NCBI GenBank assembly: GCA_016281055.1
Contig: JAEEHW010000076.1
Span: 17,605 to 81,604, forward strand
Length of the DNA stretch: 64,000 bases
Origin: Prevotella sp.
Lineage (GTDB): Bacteria; Bacteroidota; Bacteroidia; Bacteroidales; Bacteroidaceae
Direction of reading: 5' to 3'
In this document: positions 5,462 to 55,922 of the stretch, in pieces
Position numbering within the stretch: position 1 is the stretch's first letter
Layout of the letters: the number at the start of each line of letters is the position of its first letter
Translations under genes and position numbers: made by a program
Notes under the pieces: generated by a model
What the model saw: the letters and a program-made list of their open reading frames with translations, nothing else
Database searches by the model: none
Told to the model about the DNA's origin: nothing

Positions 5462-6775
5462 TTGCAATCAGATATGAAAAAGACAGTTATAGATAAGGAT
5501 GTATTGGAAAGATACGTCAGCGATGCCGTTGAACTGTTGAAGCGCCTCATCAGCACTCCCCGCGTGAGCCGCGACGAGACCGCTGCAGCAGACATCATGG
5601 AGCAGACCATGCGCCAGTATGGCTATGAGTCTGAGCGCAAGGGTAACAACCTGTGGATACGTTCCAGCAACTGGGACGACAGCAAGCCCACCATCATGCT
5701 CAATGCTCACATCGACACCGTGAAGCCCGTGGCCACATGGACACGCGACCCCTTTACGCCAAGCATCGAGGGTGACCGCCTATACGGACTGGGATCCAAC
5801 GACTGCGGCGGCGGACTGGTAAGCCTGCTGCAGGTGTTCAGGATTCTGACCCAAAAGCCCCTCCCCGCGGGGGAGAAAAAGCCCCTCCCTACCCTCCCCG
5901 TGGGGGAGGGGAAGAAACTACCTTCGTCAAATGATAGCTCTGAGGAAGCAGGTAATATCATACCCTCCACCACACGGAAGGTTGGAAGGGACTTCAACCT
6001 CATCTACCTCGCCTCATGTGAGGAAGAGGTAAGCGGTGCAGGAGGCATAAGGAGTGTACTGCAACAACAGCCCCTCCCTACCCTCCCCGCGGGGGAGGGG
6101 GATAAATCACCTTCGTTAAATGACAACTCTGAGAAAGTATGTAGTGTCATACCCTCCACCTCGGGGAGGGCAGGGAAGGACTTGATTGCCATCGTAGGTG
6201 AGCCTACGGGCATGCAGCCTGCCATTGCTGAGCGCGGACTGATGGTTATTGACGGCACTGCGCACGGCAAGAGCGGACATGCTGCACGCAACGAAGGCGT
6301 GAATGCCATATATGAAGCGCTCGACGACTTGATGTTCATCCGTGAATATAAGTTTGAGAAGGTGAGTGACCTGCTCGGACCTACAAAGATGCAGTGCACC
6401 GTAGTGAACAGCGGTACGCAGCATAACGTGGTGCCTGACGAATGTAAGTTTATCATCGACGTGCGCACAAACGAGCATTATACAAACGAAGAGGTGTTTG
6501 AGTTTCTGCAAGGCAAACTGAAGAGCGAGATAAAGGCACGCTCCTTCCACCTGCACTCATCGAGCATTCCACGCACACATCCGCTGATACAACGCTGCAT
6601 TAAGATGGGTATGGAGCCTTTCGGTTCACCCACACTGTCAGATCAGGCCCTGATGCGTTTCCCATCGTTCAAGTTAGGACCAGGTGAAAGCAGTCGCTCA
6701 CACAGCGCCGACGAATACATCTGCATATCAGAGATACGCGATGCAATAGAAAAATATCTGCAGTTACTCAGATAA
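5462..6775 (+). CDS. M20 family deacetylase (acetylornithine deacetylase/ArgE-like) carrying two in-frame repeat insertions
   Basis: M20 motifs NAHIDTVKP, SNDCGGGL, SCEEEVSGAGG, GEPTGMQPAIAERG and a C-terminal SRSHSADEY. Interrupted by two PLPTLPxGEG... segments. Confidence 0.85.
   Translation: MQSDMKKTVIDKDVLERYVSDAVELLKRLISTPRVSRDETAAADIMEQTMRQYGYESERKGNNLWIRSSNWDDSKPTIMLNAHIDTVKPVATWTRDPFTPSIEGDRLYGLGSNDCGGGLVSLLQVFRILTQKPLPAGEKKPLPTLPVGEGKKLPSSNDSSEEAGNIIPSTTRKVGRDFNLIYLASCEEEVSGAGGIRSVLQQQPLPTLPAGEGDKSPSLNDNSEKVCSVIPSTSGRAGKDLIAIVGEPTGMQPAIAERGLMVIDGTAHGKSGHAARNEGVNAIYEALDDLMFIREYKFEKVSDLLGPTKMQCTVVNSGTQHNVVPDECKFIIDVRTNEHYTNEEVFEFLQGKLKSEIKARSFHLHSSSIPRTHPLIQRCIKMGMEPFGSPTLSDQALMRFPSFKLGPGESSRSHSADEYICISEIRDAIEKYLQLLR
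5879..5994 (+). repeat. Inverted-arm repeat element, copy A (about 116 bp, inside M20 deacetylase CDS)
   Basis: aagcccctccctaccctccccgtgggggagggg...ggaaggttggaagggactt; about 80% identical to copy B by hand alignment over 115 bp. Confidence 0.85.
6068..6183 (+). repeat. Inverted-arm repeat element, copy B (about 116 bp, inside M20 deacetylase CDS)
   Basis: Left arm CAGCCCCTCCCTACCCTCCCCGCGGGGGAGGG; reverse complement of right arm AAGTCCTTCCCTGCCCTCCCCGAGGTGGAGGG. Confidence 0.85.
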
Positions 6776-18618: not shown

Positions 18619-18742
18619 TTCTTAACGGCTGTTAAATATTGCCTTGCTTTGCAATAGCATACCTTTTACGTTGTAAAAGCATAGGTATTACCATGTAAAA
18701 CGATAGCTATTACAGTGTAAAAGCATAGCTTTCATTTTGTCA
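18619..18742. repeat. 22-bp tandem near-palindromic repeat element (site 1)
   Basis: Four units at exact 22-bp spacing (GTAAAAGCATAGGTATTACCAT etc.), ending AGCTTTCATTTTGTCA. Confidence 0.8.
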
Positions 18743-22519: not shown

Positions 22520-23161
22520 TTATTTCTCCTCTATCTTTATAAGATATGGTGGTTCGTCAGCTATGGTCAGCGTACTGTCACCACACTCTGCCAGTCGTTT
22601 CAGCACATTGCTCTCGCGGCTTGCCTCCGTCAACTGACTGGTGCACACTGTAGCCTTGTAGCGTGCATTGACAATTTTGGATTCCGTCTTGTCTATCTCC
22701 ACCAGTTTCTTCTGACACATATAGCGCAGACTTATATATATAATAATGAATGCGCCAATGAGCAGCACTACACCTATCTGACGTCTTATAAAGCGCGAGA
22801 TGAAAGCACCACCCAACGTGCGCGACAGGGAGAATGGCGATGATGTATCCTGCTCCTCCTTGGCCTCACGCTCTATCACGTCCTCCAGTGTCTTGTTGCC
22901 AAACACTCCACGCAAAGAGCCTAACGGCGTGCCGTGAGATTCTTCTGAGTCTTCAGAGTTGTCAGGAGATTCTGAATGTTCTGAGTTTTCTGAGTCCTCT
23001 GAGTCCTCCGAATCCTCTGAATTCTCAGAATAATCGGAATTATCCGATTCCTCAGTTTCCTCAGAATACACCTTCCCATTCAGTTCATCGCTTTCTTCTT
23101 CACTTCCGTTCTGAATCTGGAAATCTACTATGTTCTCACTGTCACTCAATTTTCTATTCAA
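22520..23161 (-). CDS. ftsL: FtsL-like cell division protein with acidic Ser/Glu/Asp repeat N-terminus
   Basis: Position between rsmH and ftsI; single TM GVVLLIGAFIIIYISLRY followed by a coiled region. Confidence 0.75.
   Translation of the reverse strand: MNRKLSDSENIVDFQIQNGSEEESDELNGKVYSEETEESDNSDYSENSEDSEDSEDSENSEHSESPDNSEDSEESHGTPLGSLRGVFGNKTLEDVIEREAKEEQDTSSPFSLSRTLGGAFISRFIRRQIGVVLLIGAFIIIYISLRYMCQKKLVEIDKTESKIVNARYKATVCTSQLTEASRESNVLKRLAECGDSTLTIADEPPYLIKIEEK
22938..23067 (-). repeat. 9-bp tandem repeat array within ftsL-like CDS
   Basis: TTCTGAGTC TTCAGAGTT ... CTCTGAGTC CTCCGAATC CTCTGAATT CTCAGAATA ATCGGAATT (plus-strand reading). Confidence 0.85.
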
Positions 23162-31394: not shown

Positions 31395-32072
31395 TTACTG
31401 CATCTTCTGCATCTCAGCAGCAGCTATCTCCAGCTGATCATACCACTCTTTTCCGAACCTGCGTATCAGGGGTTCACGGAGAAACTGATATACCTTTATT
31501 CCTTCACGACGACCTTTTTCCACCGCATCGCGACATATTTCCCACCGATGATAATTTATGGCGGTAATATTGTTGCTCAGCGTTTTCACACGGATAGGGT
31601 ACAAAGCGCATGACATTGGCTTGCACCATCCTGTCTTCCCTTGTCGGAATAAGCGCTCGTAAGCACAGAGACAGCAATTTTTAACGGTTTTATCGGAAGA
31701 ATCAGAATCTTCAGAGTATTCGGAGTATTCTGAATTATCTGAGTTCTCGGATTTATCGGAATTATCGCCGATTTTTATATCATCATAGCAGGTGAATACG
31801 CAGTCTTTTCCATTGACTATTGAGGTGACGAGTTCTCCTTCGGGGTCATTATATGCCACCCCCTGCTGATCTATCACCGACTGCGCCGATGCTGACAGAT
31901 GCGGCCATACCTTATCGAGATTATCTTCAATTTCTGCGATTTCATCGAGTGTAACAGGTGCTCCTGCATCGCCTTCTATACAGCAACGCCCCTTGCACTT
32001 GGCAAGGTCGCACGCGAAATACTCGGTAAGTATATCGGAAGAAACAAGAATATTGTCAATATCAAGTATCAT
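31395..32072 (-). CDS. DUF3109-like Cys-rich protein with in-frame Ser/Asp/Glu repeat insertion
   Basis: FACDLAKCKGRCCIEGDAGAPVT...CVFTCYD...CCLCAYERLFRQGKTGWCKPMSCALYPIRV. Confidence 0.75.
   Translation of the reverse strand: MILDIDNILVSSDILTEYFACDLAKCKGRCCIEGDAGAPVTLDEIAEIEDNLDKVWPHLSASAQSVIDQQGVAYNDPEGELVTSIVNGKDCVFTCYDDIKIGDNSDKSENSDNSEYSEYSEDSDSSDKTVKNCCLCAYERLFRQGKTGWCKPMSCALYPIRVKTLSNNITAINYHRWEICRDAVEKGRREGIKVYQFLREPLIRRFGKEWYDQLEIAAAEMQKMQ
31686..31772 (-). repeat. 9-bp tandem repeat array within the DUF3109-like CDS
   Basis: TATCGGAAG AATCAGAAT CTTCAGAGT ATTCGGAGT ATTCTGAAT TATCTGAGT TCTCGGATT TATCGGAAT. Confidence 0.85.
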
Positions 32073-35184: not shown

Positions 35185-35287
35185 TAATTCACAATTCATA
35201 ATGCACGATGCACAATCATGCTAAACGGAACGAATAATACGAGTTATACGCAACAATTGTGCATTATGCATTGTGCATTGTGCATTA
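35185..35287. repeat. Inverted-arm repeat element, gyrB-rpsT intergenic (32-bp arms)
   Basis: Left TAATTCACAATTCATAATGCACGATGCACAAT; reverse-complemented right TAATGCACAATGCACAATGCATAATGCACAAT. Confidence 0.8.
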
Positions 35288-35372
35288 AAACATAAGGTTT
35301 TACATGGTAAAAAATATGCAATTACAAGGTAAAAGCTATCGTATTACAATGTAAAAGGTATGCTTTTACAGT
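35285..35372. repeat. 22-bp tandem near-palindromic repeat (site 2)
   Basis: GTAAAAAATATGCAATTACAAG / GTAAAAGCTATCGTATTACAAT / GTAAAAGGTATGCTTTTACAGT. Confidence 0.75.
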
Positions 35373-51405: not shown

Positions 51406-51529
51406 TTCCTAACGGATGTTAAATTCCATAGGGTATCGTAAAAGCATAGCTATTACACTGTAAAAGCTATCATATTACACTGTAAAAGCATAGCTATTAC
51501 AAGGTAATACGATAGCTTTCATTTTGTCA
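51406..51529. repeat. 22-bp tandem near-palindromic repeat element (site 3)
   Basis: Four 22-bp units from 51438; left flank CTAACGGATGTTAAAT and right flank AGCTTTCATTTTGTCA shared with site 1. Confidence 0.85.
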
Positions 51530-53603: not shown

Positions 53604-55922
53604 ATGGCAAAATCAAAGGGAAAGAAGGGCGGCAAGCACATGACAAAGGCGCAGCTGGCCGAACAGTTGGAATCATATTTCCGTTCACGTCCGGGAGAGA
53701 CAATCTCTTTTAAGACAATATTCAAGGACTTGCACCTTAACACTCATCCGCTGAAGATGCTCGCCATCGACACTCTTGAGGACATGGCATGGGATGATTT
53801 CCTCGTGCGTGTTACCGACTCATCATATAAACTTGCTGAGAACACACAGGTGATGGAGGGTGTTTTCCAGGCCAAAGCCAACGGACGTAACTCCATAACA
53901 CCTGACGGAAGCGACAAACCTATATTCGTGGCAGAACGCAACTCCATGTATGCCATGACGGGCGACCGCGTGCGTTTCTGCATGATGGCACGTCGCAAGA
54001 GCCACATACGCGAGGCACAGGTGACGGAGATAATAAAGAGAAAGAAAGACCAGTTCGTGGGTCGTCTGCAAGTGGAAGACGGATATGCCGTACTCATTCC
54101 ACAGGACCCTATGCCGTGCAGCATCTTCATACCGAAAGACAAGTTGCTTGGCGGCAAGACCAACGAGCGTGCAGTGGTGGCTGTAAGGAAATGGCCCGAT
54201 GCAGAGCACCGCACCATCGTTGCAGAGGTTATCGACGTATTGGGCGAGCGTGGTGACAACGACGTTGAGATGAACACCATATTGGTGCAGTATGGCTTGC
54301 CATACAAATATCCGAAGGAGGTGGAGGATGCCGCCAACAAGATAAGCGACAAGATTACTCCTGAGGACATGGAGAACCGTGAGGACTTCCGCGATGTATT
54401 CACCTGTACCATCGACCCGCGCGATGCCAAGGACTTTGACGATGCGCTGTCAATAAGGAAAATTGAGAATGGAAAATTGAAAGTTAAAAATTCCGATTAC
54501 TCACAGACTGATGAAACACTGGATTCAGCCAGCAAGGGTAATCATAATTCTCAACTTTCAACTCTCAACTCTCAATTATATGAGGTGGGTGTTCACATCG
54601 CTGATGTATCACATTATGTCACCGAAGGCTCCATTATAGATAAGGAGGCAGAGAAGCGTGCCACGAGTGTCTATCTCGTTGACCGCACCATCCCTATGCT
54701 GCCTGAGCGCCTGTGCAACTATATCTGTTCGCTGCGCCCCGATGAGGAGAAACTGGCATACAGTGTCATCTTCACCATGGATGAGGAAGCTAATGTGAAG
54801 GACTACCGCATCGTACACACCGTGATACGTTCTGACCGCCGCTATGCATACGAGGAGGTGCAGAAGGTGATAGAGGAAAGTTGGAAATGGCGCGGTGAGG
54901 ACGGCAACCACTCTTCACCAGTGACTGCAAAAGGCATGGAAGCCCTGAAGAAGATGGATCCGAACGCCGAGCGACTGCTCATACTTGACAGCCTGGCCAA
55001 GAAGTTGCGCGAACATAGGTTCAAGAACGGCTCGGTGAAGTTCGACCGCGAGGAGATGAAGTTTGAAATCGACGACAAAGGCAAACCTGTAAGTTGTTAT
55101 TTCAAGCGTTCTCTCGATGCCAACAAACTCATTGAGGAGTTCATGCTCCTTGCCAACCGCACCGTAGCCGAGCACATTGGCAAGGTACCTAAGGGCAAGA
55201 AGGCCAAGACATTGCCTTACCGCATACACGATGATCCAGACCCAGTGAAACTGGAGCAGTTGAAACAGTTCGTCGTGAAGTTCGGCCATCGCATGAAATC
55301 CACCAGCACCAAGGGTGCCACAGCACGCGCCATCAACACGCTGATGGACGAGGTGGAGGGCCGCCCTGAGTGCAATGCCGTGCAGATGGTGGCACTGAAG
55401 GCCATGATGAAGGCAAAGTATTCAACACACAACATCGGTCACTTCGGACTGGCGTTCGACTATTACACACACTTCACATCGCCCATACGCCGCTATCCAG
55501 ACACAATGGTGCACCGTCTGCTCACTCGCTATGCCGAGGGTGCGCGTTCTGCCAACCAGGATCACTACGAGGAGCTCTGCGAACACTCGTCCGATATGGA
55601 ACAGATAGCAGCCAATGCCGAGCGCGACTCAATAAAATATAAGATGGTGGAGTATATGAGCGAGTTCATCGGTCAGGAGTTCGATGCGCATATCTCCGGC
55701 ATCACCAGCTACGGCATATACGCCGAGATAGACGAGAACCACTGCGAGGGCATGATTCTCATACGTGACCTCAAAGACGACTACTACGAGTTTGACGAGC
55801 GTAATTTCTGCCTCATCGGTCGCCGTCGCCACAACCGCTATCAGTTGGGCGACCCACTGCGCATCAAGGTGGCACGTGCCAATCTCGACAAGAAGCAACT
55901 CGACTTCGTGTTAGCGGAATAG
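53604..55922 (+). CDS. rnr: Ribonuclease R (with 39-codon repeat insertion)
   Basis: RNB DPRDAKDFDDALSI ... YEVGVHIADVSHYV; HFTSPIRRYPDTMVHRLL; C-terminal S1 domain. Confidence 0.94.
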   Translation: MAKSKGKKGGKHMTKAQLAEQLESYFRSRPGETISFKTIFKDLHLNTHPLKMLAIDTLEDMAWDDFLVRVTDSSYKLAENTQVMEGVFQAKANGRNSITPDGSDKPIFVAERNSMYAMTGDRVRFCMMARRKSHIREAQVTEIIKRKKDQFVGRLQVEDGYAVLIPQDPMPCSIFIPKDKLLGGKTNERAVVAVRKWPDAEHRTIVAEVIDVLGERGDNDVEMNTILVQYGLPYKYPKEVEDAANKISDKITPEDMENREDFRDVFTCTIDPRDAKDFDDALSIRKIENGKLKVKNSDYSQTDETLDSASKGNHNSQLSTLNSQLYEVGVHIADVSHYVTEGSIIDKEAEKRATSVYLVDRTIPMLPERLCNYICSLRPDEEKLAYSVIFTMDEEANVKDYRIVHTVIRSDRRYAYEEVQKVIEESWKWRGEDGNHSSPVTAKGMEALKKMDPNAERLLILDSLAKKLREHRFKNGSVKFDREEMKFEIDDKGKPVSCYFKRSLDANKLIEEFMLLANRTVAEHIGKVPKGKKAKTLPYRIHDDPDPVKLEQLKQFVVKFGHRMKSTSTKGATARAINTLMDEVEGRPECNAVQMVALKAMMKAKYSTHNIGHFGLAFDYYTHFTSPIRRYPDTMVHRLLTRYAEGARSANQDHYEELCEHSSDMEQIAANAERDSIKYKMVEYMSEFIGQEFDAHISGITSYGIYAEIDENHCEGMILIRDLKDDYYEFDERNFCLIGRRRHNRYQLGDPLRIKVARANLDKKQLDFVLAE
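54461..54577 (+). repeat. Inverted-arm repeat element, 117 bp, inside rnr CDS
   Basis: Left AATTGAGAATGGAAAATTGAAAGTTAAAAATT; reverse-complemented right AATTGAGAGTTGAGAGTTGAAAGTTGAGAATT (26/32 by hand). Confidence 0.85.

Follow-up and report, generated by a model that had tools for sequence, protein, structure and literature searches.

Palindrome-ended inserts translated within an M20 deacetylase gene of Prevotella sp. share their ends with cassettes carrying a DUF559 gene

How do two similar pieces of DNA come to lie, in frame and translated, inside the gene of a conserved enzyme? The question is raised by an M20 deacetylase gene found in a window of 64,000 nt (the whole stretch analysed, contig JAEEHW010000076.1, positions 17,605 to 81,604) from a metagenome-assembled Prevotellaceae genome of 3.17 Mb in 151 contigs. 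Judged from its sequence, the gene is of the M20 acetylornithine deacetylase type, with both M20 domains (catalytic and dimerisation) and the conserved motifs present, and its nearest solved homologue 3ct9 (‘acetylornithine deacetylase’, E=1.9e-122) has neither insert. The motif residues H79, D81, E183-E185 and G242-E243-P244-T245 are invariant in 33 homologues and all lie outside the inserts, in agreement with an earlier reading of the same DNA made without database searches (the sequence-only reading), which had described the motifs as intact and the segments as placed between them. The frame is open across both insert copies and gives the peptides quoted in that reading. AlphaFold models the inserts as disordered loops, with a pLDDT of about 39–70 in the inserts and mostly >85 in the core. 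The gene and the repeats inside it are listed here with their positions in the window.

5474 to 6775, + strand: host gene, M20 family deacetylase (Pfam PF01546 and PF07687; PDB 3ct9)
5856 to 5876, + strand: older single palindromic unit at site 1, the ‘third arm’ (palindrome at 5859-5877); a related short unit, AAAAGCCCCTCCCTGCGGGGAAGG, stands in L013, the M20 locus of UBA3849, which is without copy 1
5877 to 5994, + strand: element copy 1, in frame, about 39 codons; direct repeat, net insertion of 105 nt relative to L013 and to genome G001
5880 to 5910, + strand: left terminal repeat of copy 1, head AGCCCCTCCCTA plus palindrome CCCTCCCCGTGGGGGAGGG, matching both ends of a DUF559 cassette on contig C148
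5963 to 5993, - strand: right terminal repeat of copy 1, degenerate and with its palindrome decayed, in register with the right arm of copy 2
6066 to 6183, + strand: element copy 2, in frame; direct repeat, net insertion of 99 nt relative to G001
6069 to 6099, + strand: left terminal repeat of copy 2, one half of an inverted pair (84% complementary)
6152 to 6182, - strand: right terminal repeat of copy 2, the other half of that pair, with palindrome CCCTCCACCTCGGGGAGGG at 6152-6170

The two copies (5877-5994 and 6066-6183) form a direct repeat of 118 nt each, 81% identical and 189 nt apart from start to start. The sequence-only reading was right about two in-frame copies of about 80% identity in the same orientation, but its unit of 116 nt is slightly too short, and its term ‘inverted-arm repeat’ is correct for the two ends of one copy and not for the copies themselves, which are direct repeats. 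Inverted arms are found at 6069-6099/6152-6182 (31 nt, 84% complementary) and also at 5879-5921/6141-6183 (43 nt, 81%), and the partial third arm that had been noticed just upstream is present as the palindrome CCCTCCCCGCGGGGGAGAA at 5859-5877. The four palindromes of the M20 gene share the form CCCTCCCC-NNN-GGGGAGGG. Searching the whole window for the pattern CCCTCCCCNNNGGGGAGGG with up to three mismatches gave four matches, all of them inside this gene, where 0.05 would be expected for the window, and none of 100 shuffles of the window reached four. Both units are short elements bounded by terminal inverted repeats, which are made up of a C-rich head and the CCCTCCCC-GGGGAGGG palindrome.

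Empty sites exist for both units. Site 1 spans 159 nt in the window and 54 nt in L129 (the locus of G001), L013 and a third locus, L014, while site 2 spans 150 nt in the window and in L013 and 51 nt in L129 and L014. G001, the closest genome in the genus, has neither insert at its M20 gene, and UBA3849 carries the element at site 2 together with the short palindromic unit alone at site 1. Both net insertions, 105 nt at site 1 and 99 nt at site 2, are multiples of three. Short loops are found at both places in 3ct9 and in most of 48 aligned relatives. Site 1 is a permissive loop whose length varies among many relatives: L018 and L021 have simple repeats there, and unrelated insertions are found in other lineages, among them palindrome-type peptides of a different kind in L025, L044 and L049. 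The same peptides at the same positions across the genus, which the sequence-only reading had named as an argument against its own proposal, were not found; in some relatives the site-1 loop holds other insertions. Two horse-gut Bacteroidaceae M20 genes (L044:1962-3281 and L049:1962-3170) hold the repeat peptides LSPTGGGVGGGL and LPLGGIEG in this loop.

Comparison of the two copies with each other gave a dN of 0.24 and a dS of 0.17 (dN/dS about 1.4), while the rest of the M20 gene, compared between the window and L013, gave 0.086 and 0.92 (dN/dS 0.09). This contrast leaves no detectable sign of purifying selection on the insert peptide. As the dS between the copies is below that of the gene, they either diverged once the L013 lineage had separated or underwent homogenisation. 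Over its first 60 nt, copy 1 resembles the site-2 element of L013 more closely (56/61) than copy 2 does (53/61), which fits copying from site 2 to site 1. Most likely, as far as these alignments suggest, a further copy entered site 1 from site 2 after the window and L013 had separated, with a deletion in L013 as a possible alternative for site 1. The histories of the two copies differ because site 1 holds the extra older palindromic unit that is also present in L013.

Within the genome the full 118-nt unit is found in the M20 gene only, and the same is true for its interior. The terminal arm of about 33 nt does recur, with the best non-self matches on contigs C148 (100% over 33 nt and 97% over 34 nt) and C62 (95% over 38 nt). 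The sequence-only reading had expected a mobile unit to occur elsewhere in the genome, and this turned out to hold for the terminal arms and not for the unit as a whole. In total 43 palindromes with up to two mismatches were counted in the genome, a number based on pattern and BLAST searches that miss strongly diverged copies; the reversed pattern used as control gave 0. Many of these palindromes sit after genes, and single ones without a partner are common. Others are in frame, namely at three places in metH (PF02574, PF00809, PF02607, PF02310, PF02965), once in mnmG (PF01134), where the insert coincides with an alignment gap against 3cp8, twice in ispG (PF04551), twice in a very long Rhs/YD-repeat-like frame and once near the start of a lipoprotein gene, the last two being named from sequence only.

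Repeats of other kinds are also present. An in-frame repeat of 9/18/27-nt tandem units encoding SENSEYSEDSE-type peptides occurs in several unrelated genes (window 22941-23031 and 31693-31766, and the mnmG locus L229). Dispersed 22-nt tandem repeats of a near-palindromic GTAAAAGCATAGCTATTACA type, probably intergenic, lie at 18649-18730, 35286-35370 and 51438-51517, and a sequence similar to them is found in G000:C116 (L011). The RNase R-like gene at 53604-55922 has an in-frame low-complexity insertion, KLKVKNSDYSQTDETLDSASKGNHNSQLSTLNSQL, between conserved parts at about 54450-54600.

The two arm matches on C148 are the inverted ends of a single-gene cassette that encodes a DUF559 protein of about 143 aa and sits between era and der (both names assigned by sequence). 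We therefore surveyed the DUF559 genes of 60 relatives, aligning the left flank of each gene to its own right flank in reverse complement. The mean left-versus-right score of 40 DUF559 loci was 24.0, compared to 10.8 for cross pairings between genomes. Scores of 15 or more were obtained for 31/40 of these loci (Bacteroidales) and for 15/26 Y1_Tnp genes, which served as the positive control class, but for 0/57 random intervals and 0/35 M20 gene flanks. The DUF559 ends follow a common plan, with a C-rich head outside and a palindrome inside, in a flavour specific to each genome. Among ten plasmid-borne homologues from other phyla, those from Pseudanabaena (63), Deinococcus (41.5 and 18.5), Sphingomonas (26) and Picosynechococcus (17) passed the same threshold and five scored <15. 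The other DUF559 gene of the window's own genome, on C67, has palindromes on both sides with no clear matching inverted repeat (score 10).

G001 has a C148-type cassette at the same era-der junction, with two tandem left ends, while most other genus members examined at scorable loci show a short junction without a cassette. A recent movement of the C148 cassette is unsupported, since G001 has it at the same place. Another unit, of 608 bp, is found in G026; in the 98% identical G003 the sequence is continuous apart from a few bases, and the break points lie at the terminal repeats or within about 20 nt of them. As the more distant relatives G016 and G023 have DUF559 at this place, a gain in G026 is no more likely than a loss in G003. 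Neither the G026/G003 junction nor M20 site 2 shows a clear target-site duplication. Across 36 genus members, carrying at least three palindromes of one pattern goes along with having a DUF559 gene (11/14 vs 5/22, P=0.002, uncorrected for phylogeny). The DUF559 profile matches 3r3p, a ‘mobile intron protein’ (E=3.7e-8) which we take to be I-Bth0305I, as well as 3hrl, and in 16 DUF559 domains D67, E78, D80 and D93 are invariant and H84 nearly so.

The ends also occur in pairs without the gene. A 79-nt DUF559 end from G011 has 49 scored copies in G011 itself and weaker matches in most other genomes tested. Where neighbouring end copies lie <400 nt apart, 21/23 pairs are arranged outside-in, with the heads outwards, and are 102-301 nt long; there were no inside-out pairs among the 23 (P ~3e-11 for random orientation, in related genomes that are not fully independent). 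The M20 units share the anatomy of these head-out short elements, and several of twenty such elements sit in long open frames. Two short elements, L331 and L332 (G034:C19), lie about 3.3 kb apart on the same contig, each in a long open frame that by sequence resembles the glutamate synthase large subunit.

Not only the short elements but also complete DUF559 domains are read through in host genes. In leuS of G054 (L272:491-3721) and G037 (L273:652-3909), which belong to two families, a complete DUF559 domain is translated through at about the same place and carries palindrome-type linker peptides; in G054 it separates the stretches that align to residues 236 and 242 of T. thermophilus LeuRS. 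DUF559 is also found in frame within a DegT/DnrJ/EryC1 aminotransferase gene of the closest relative G001 (L184:851-2587), within an ABC-F type ATPase gene of G028 and, read through, within a helicase-like gene of G030. As DUF559 beside helicase domains also exists as a natural fusion, the last is the weakest nested case. In addition, DUF559 is fused in frame at the starts of gmk (three genomes), argB and ispF (L106, L111, L115, L176, L180), several of these having PLPLGGSGVG-type repeats in between, and at the start of an RNase H gene.

We thus favour, with a probability of roughly 0.6, the reading that the M20 inserts are short non-autonomous members of a palindrome-ended element family that is linked to DUF559 and spread by a nuclease. 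Each end is a terminal inverted repeat that consists, from the outside inwards, of a C-rich head AAGCCCCTCCCTA and the GC-rich palindrome CCCTCCCC-NNN-GGGGAGGG, followed by a short interior, and in the longer members a single gene between the ends encodes the DUF559 nuclease (Vsr/PD-(D/E)XK). Empty sites, element anatomy, in-frame copies at other loci, shared ends, their polarity and the relaxed constraint on the peptide are results of the analysis; we infer the cutting, the copying and the dependence of movement on DUF559. In the simplest model the nuclease would cut DNA, and repair would copy long or short members in from an element-bearing locus in a homing-like manner. No cleavage site was identified for the DUF559 elements. 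At the M20 gene an element would have entered site 2 before the window lineage and UBA3849 (L013) split, and a copy of it would have reached site 1 afterwards. Stop codons are nearly absent from the ends in most frames, and copies lying in frame in surface loops would therefore be translated and tolerated, housekeeping enzymes included. The idea of a small element that tolerates translation, as put forward in the sequence-only reading, is borne out by the empty homologues, the recurring arms and the in-frame copies; its ends being those of a DUF559 cassette had been missed. Whether palindrome-bounded DUF559 genes in general are a widespread minimal mobile element of bacteria, powered by a Vsr-like nuclease, amplifying REPIN-like copies and persisting translated in essential genes, is in our opinion an even bet.

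A different enzyme, such as a RAYT/Y1 transposase working in trans, could instead spread the palindromes, with DUF559 as a passenger or homing into existing palindromes, so that the shared ends would be its target. RAYTs are associated with REP palindromes elsewhere (PMC3733652), the genome has one weak Y1_Tnp gene (C88:6136, 24.8 bits), its many single palindromes lack partners, and the two tandem left ends in G001 look as if the cassette had been inserted beside an existing unit. However, no such palindrome lies within 3.4 kb around the C88 gene, DUF559 is present with no Y1_Tnp match in G003, G008, G019, G023, G026 and G030, and a DUF559 end has its closest and most numerous copies within its own genome, which leaves another enzyme as a somewhat doubtful explanation. 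A RAYT acting in cis was rejected, as the only Y1_Tnp gene has no palindrome nearby.

Explanations without any mobility are much less probable. A hypervariable surface loop growing by local tandem duplication and slippage of C-rich sequence would agree with a site-1 loop that varies in length among many relatives and holds simple repeats in some (L018, L021), and with two copies whose similarity is greater than the lineage split would permit. As the arms recur at unlinked loci with outside-in polarity, in frame in other genes and at DUF559 cassettes, local slippage as the sole origin is rejected, and we give this account very little credit. We think just as little of a functional peptide added to the enzyme by selection, even if the inserts are in frame and retained and similar site-1 insertions recur in several lineages: the dN/dS between the copies is far from that of the gene (although over 39 codons it is compatible with positive selection), the inserts are predicted to be disordered, and relatives do without them. 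An artefact of the metagenome assembly might be suspected from its 151 contigs and from repeats that are GC-rich palindromes, but is extremely improbable, given that the site-2 element is present with sequence divergence in the independent assembly of UBA3849 (L013) and that the frame is kept across both inserts.

Several known systems resemble the DUF559-linked elements that we favour. Rickettsia palindromic elements are about 105-146 bp long, have terminal inverted repeats, occur in many copies per genome and are tolerated in frame in genes of conserved proteins, according to the accessible parts of the reports (PMC2229807, PMC3767692). The sequence-only reading had aptly named them as the closest precedent: the 118-nt units with 31-nt arms of 84% complementarity fall into their 100-150 bp class, and conserved genes (M20, metH, mnmG, ispG) contain the units or their palindromes in frame while homologues are without insert. 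Differences are the phylum, the GC-rich ends and the match of the ends described here to those of a candidate autonomous partner with a nuclease gene, and homology in sequence would not be expected; those same parts of the Rickettsia reports describe no such partner (PMC2229807, PMC3767692). REP/REPIN palindromes and RAYTs (REPtrons) form inverted pairs in genome-specific families, with gene-bearing versions flanked by the repeat (PMC3733652). Inverted pairs of fixed polarity (21/23 outside-in) and gene-bearing versions with the same ends are seen here as well, but the linked gene encodes a DUF559 PD-(D/E)XK nuclease instead of a tyrosine transposase of the HUH type, neither a GTAG nor a CGTC tag is seen, copies lie in frame inside genes, and the only Y1_Tnp gene of the genome (C88) is without a flanking palindrome within 3.4 kb. 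The short elements also share terminal repeats with a longer gene-bearing element, as MITEs do with their parental insertion sequence, but the parental gene would here be a DUF559 nuclease and no known transposase, and no clear target-site duplication is seen.

The nuclease itself has relatives among homing enzymes, as I-Bth0305I is an EDxHD homing endonuclease (PMC3943268). The profile match to 3r3p suggests kinship with these Vsr-like enzymes, and in both cases nuclease genes are nested in conserved host genes. Unlike them, the DUF559 domain shows no evident intron or intein, is read through as host protein and bounded by terminal inverted repeats, and the protein, with about 140 aa, is too small for a long DNA-binding extension. 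The DUF559 Pfam domain is also shared by VsrA of Caulobacter, which was proposed to be a mismatch-repair enzyme, with no mobility reported in the accessible part of that paper (PMC12907096); the domain is thus not specific for mobility. In the open-licence literature, by title and abstract, we found no description of DUF559 with terminal or palindromic repeats, and an earlier report elsewhere is possible.

In summary, translated palindromic repeats are already known, and it is the link to DUF559 that differs here. In-frame palindromic repeats of bacteria have been known since those of Rickettsia, and the accessible parts of the reports name no engine for them; the DUF559 cassette is a specific and testable candidate. 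The nested leuS cases in two families suggest a hypothesis for the function of DUF559, still a Pfam domain of ‘unknown function’, and the nested cases give a measure of how far conserved proteins tolerate interruption. With this knowledge, PLPTLPAGEG-type peptides in annotated enzymes would become recognisable as derived from such elements.
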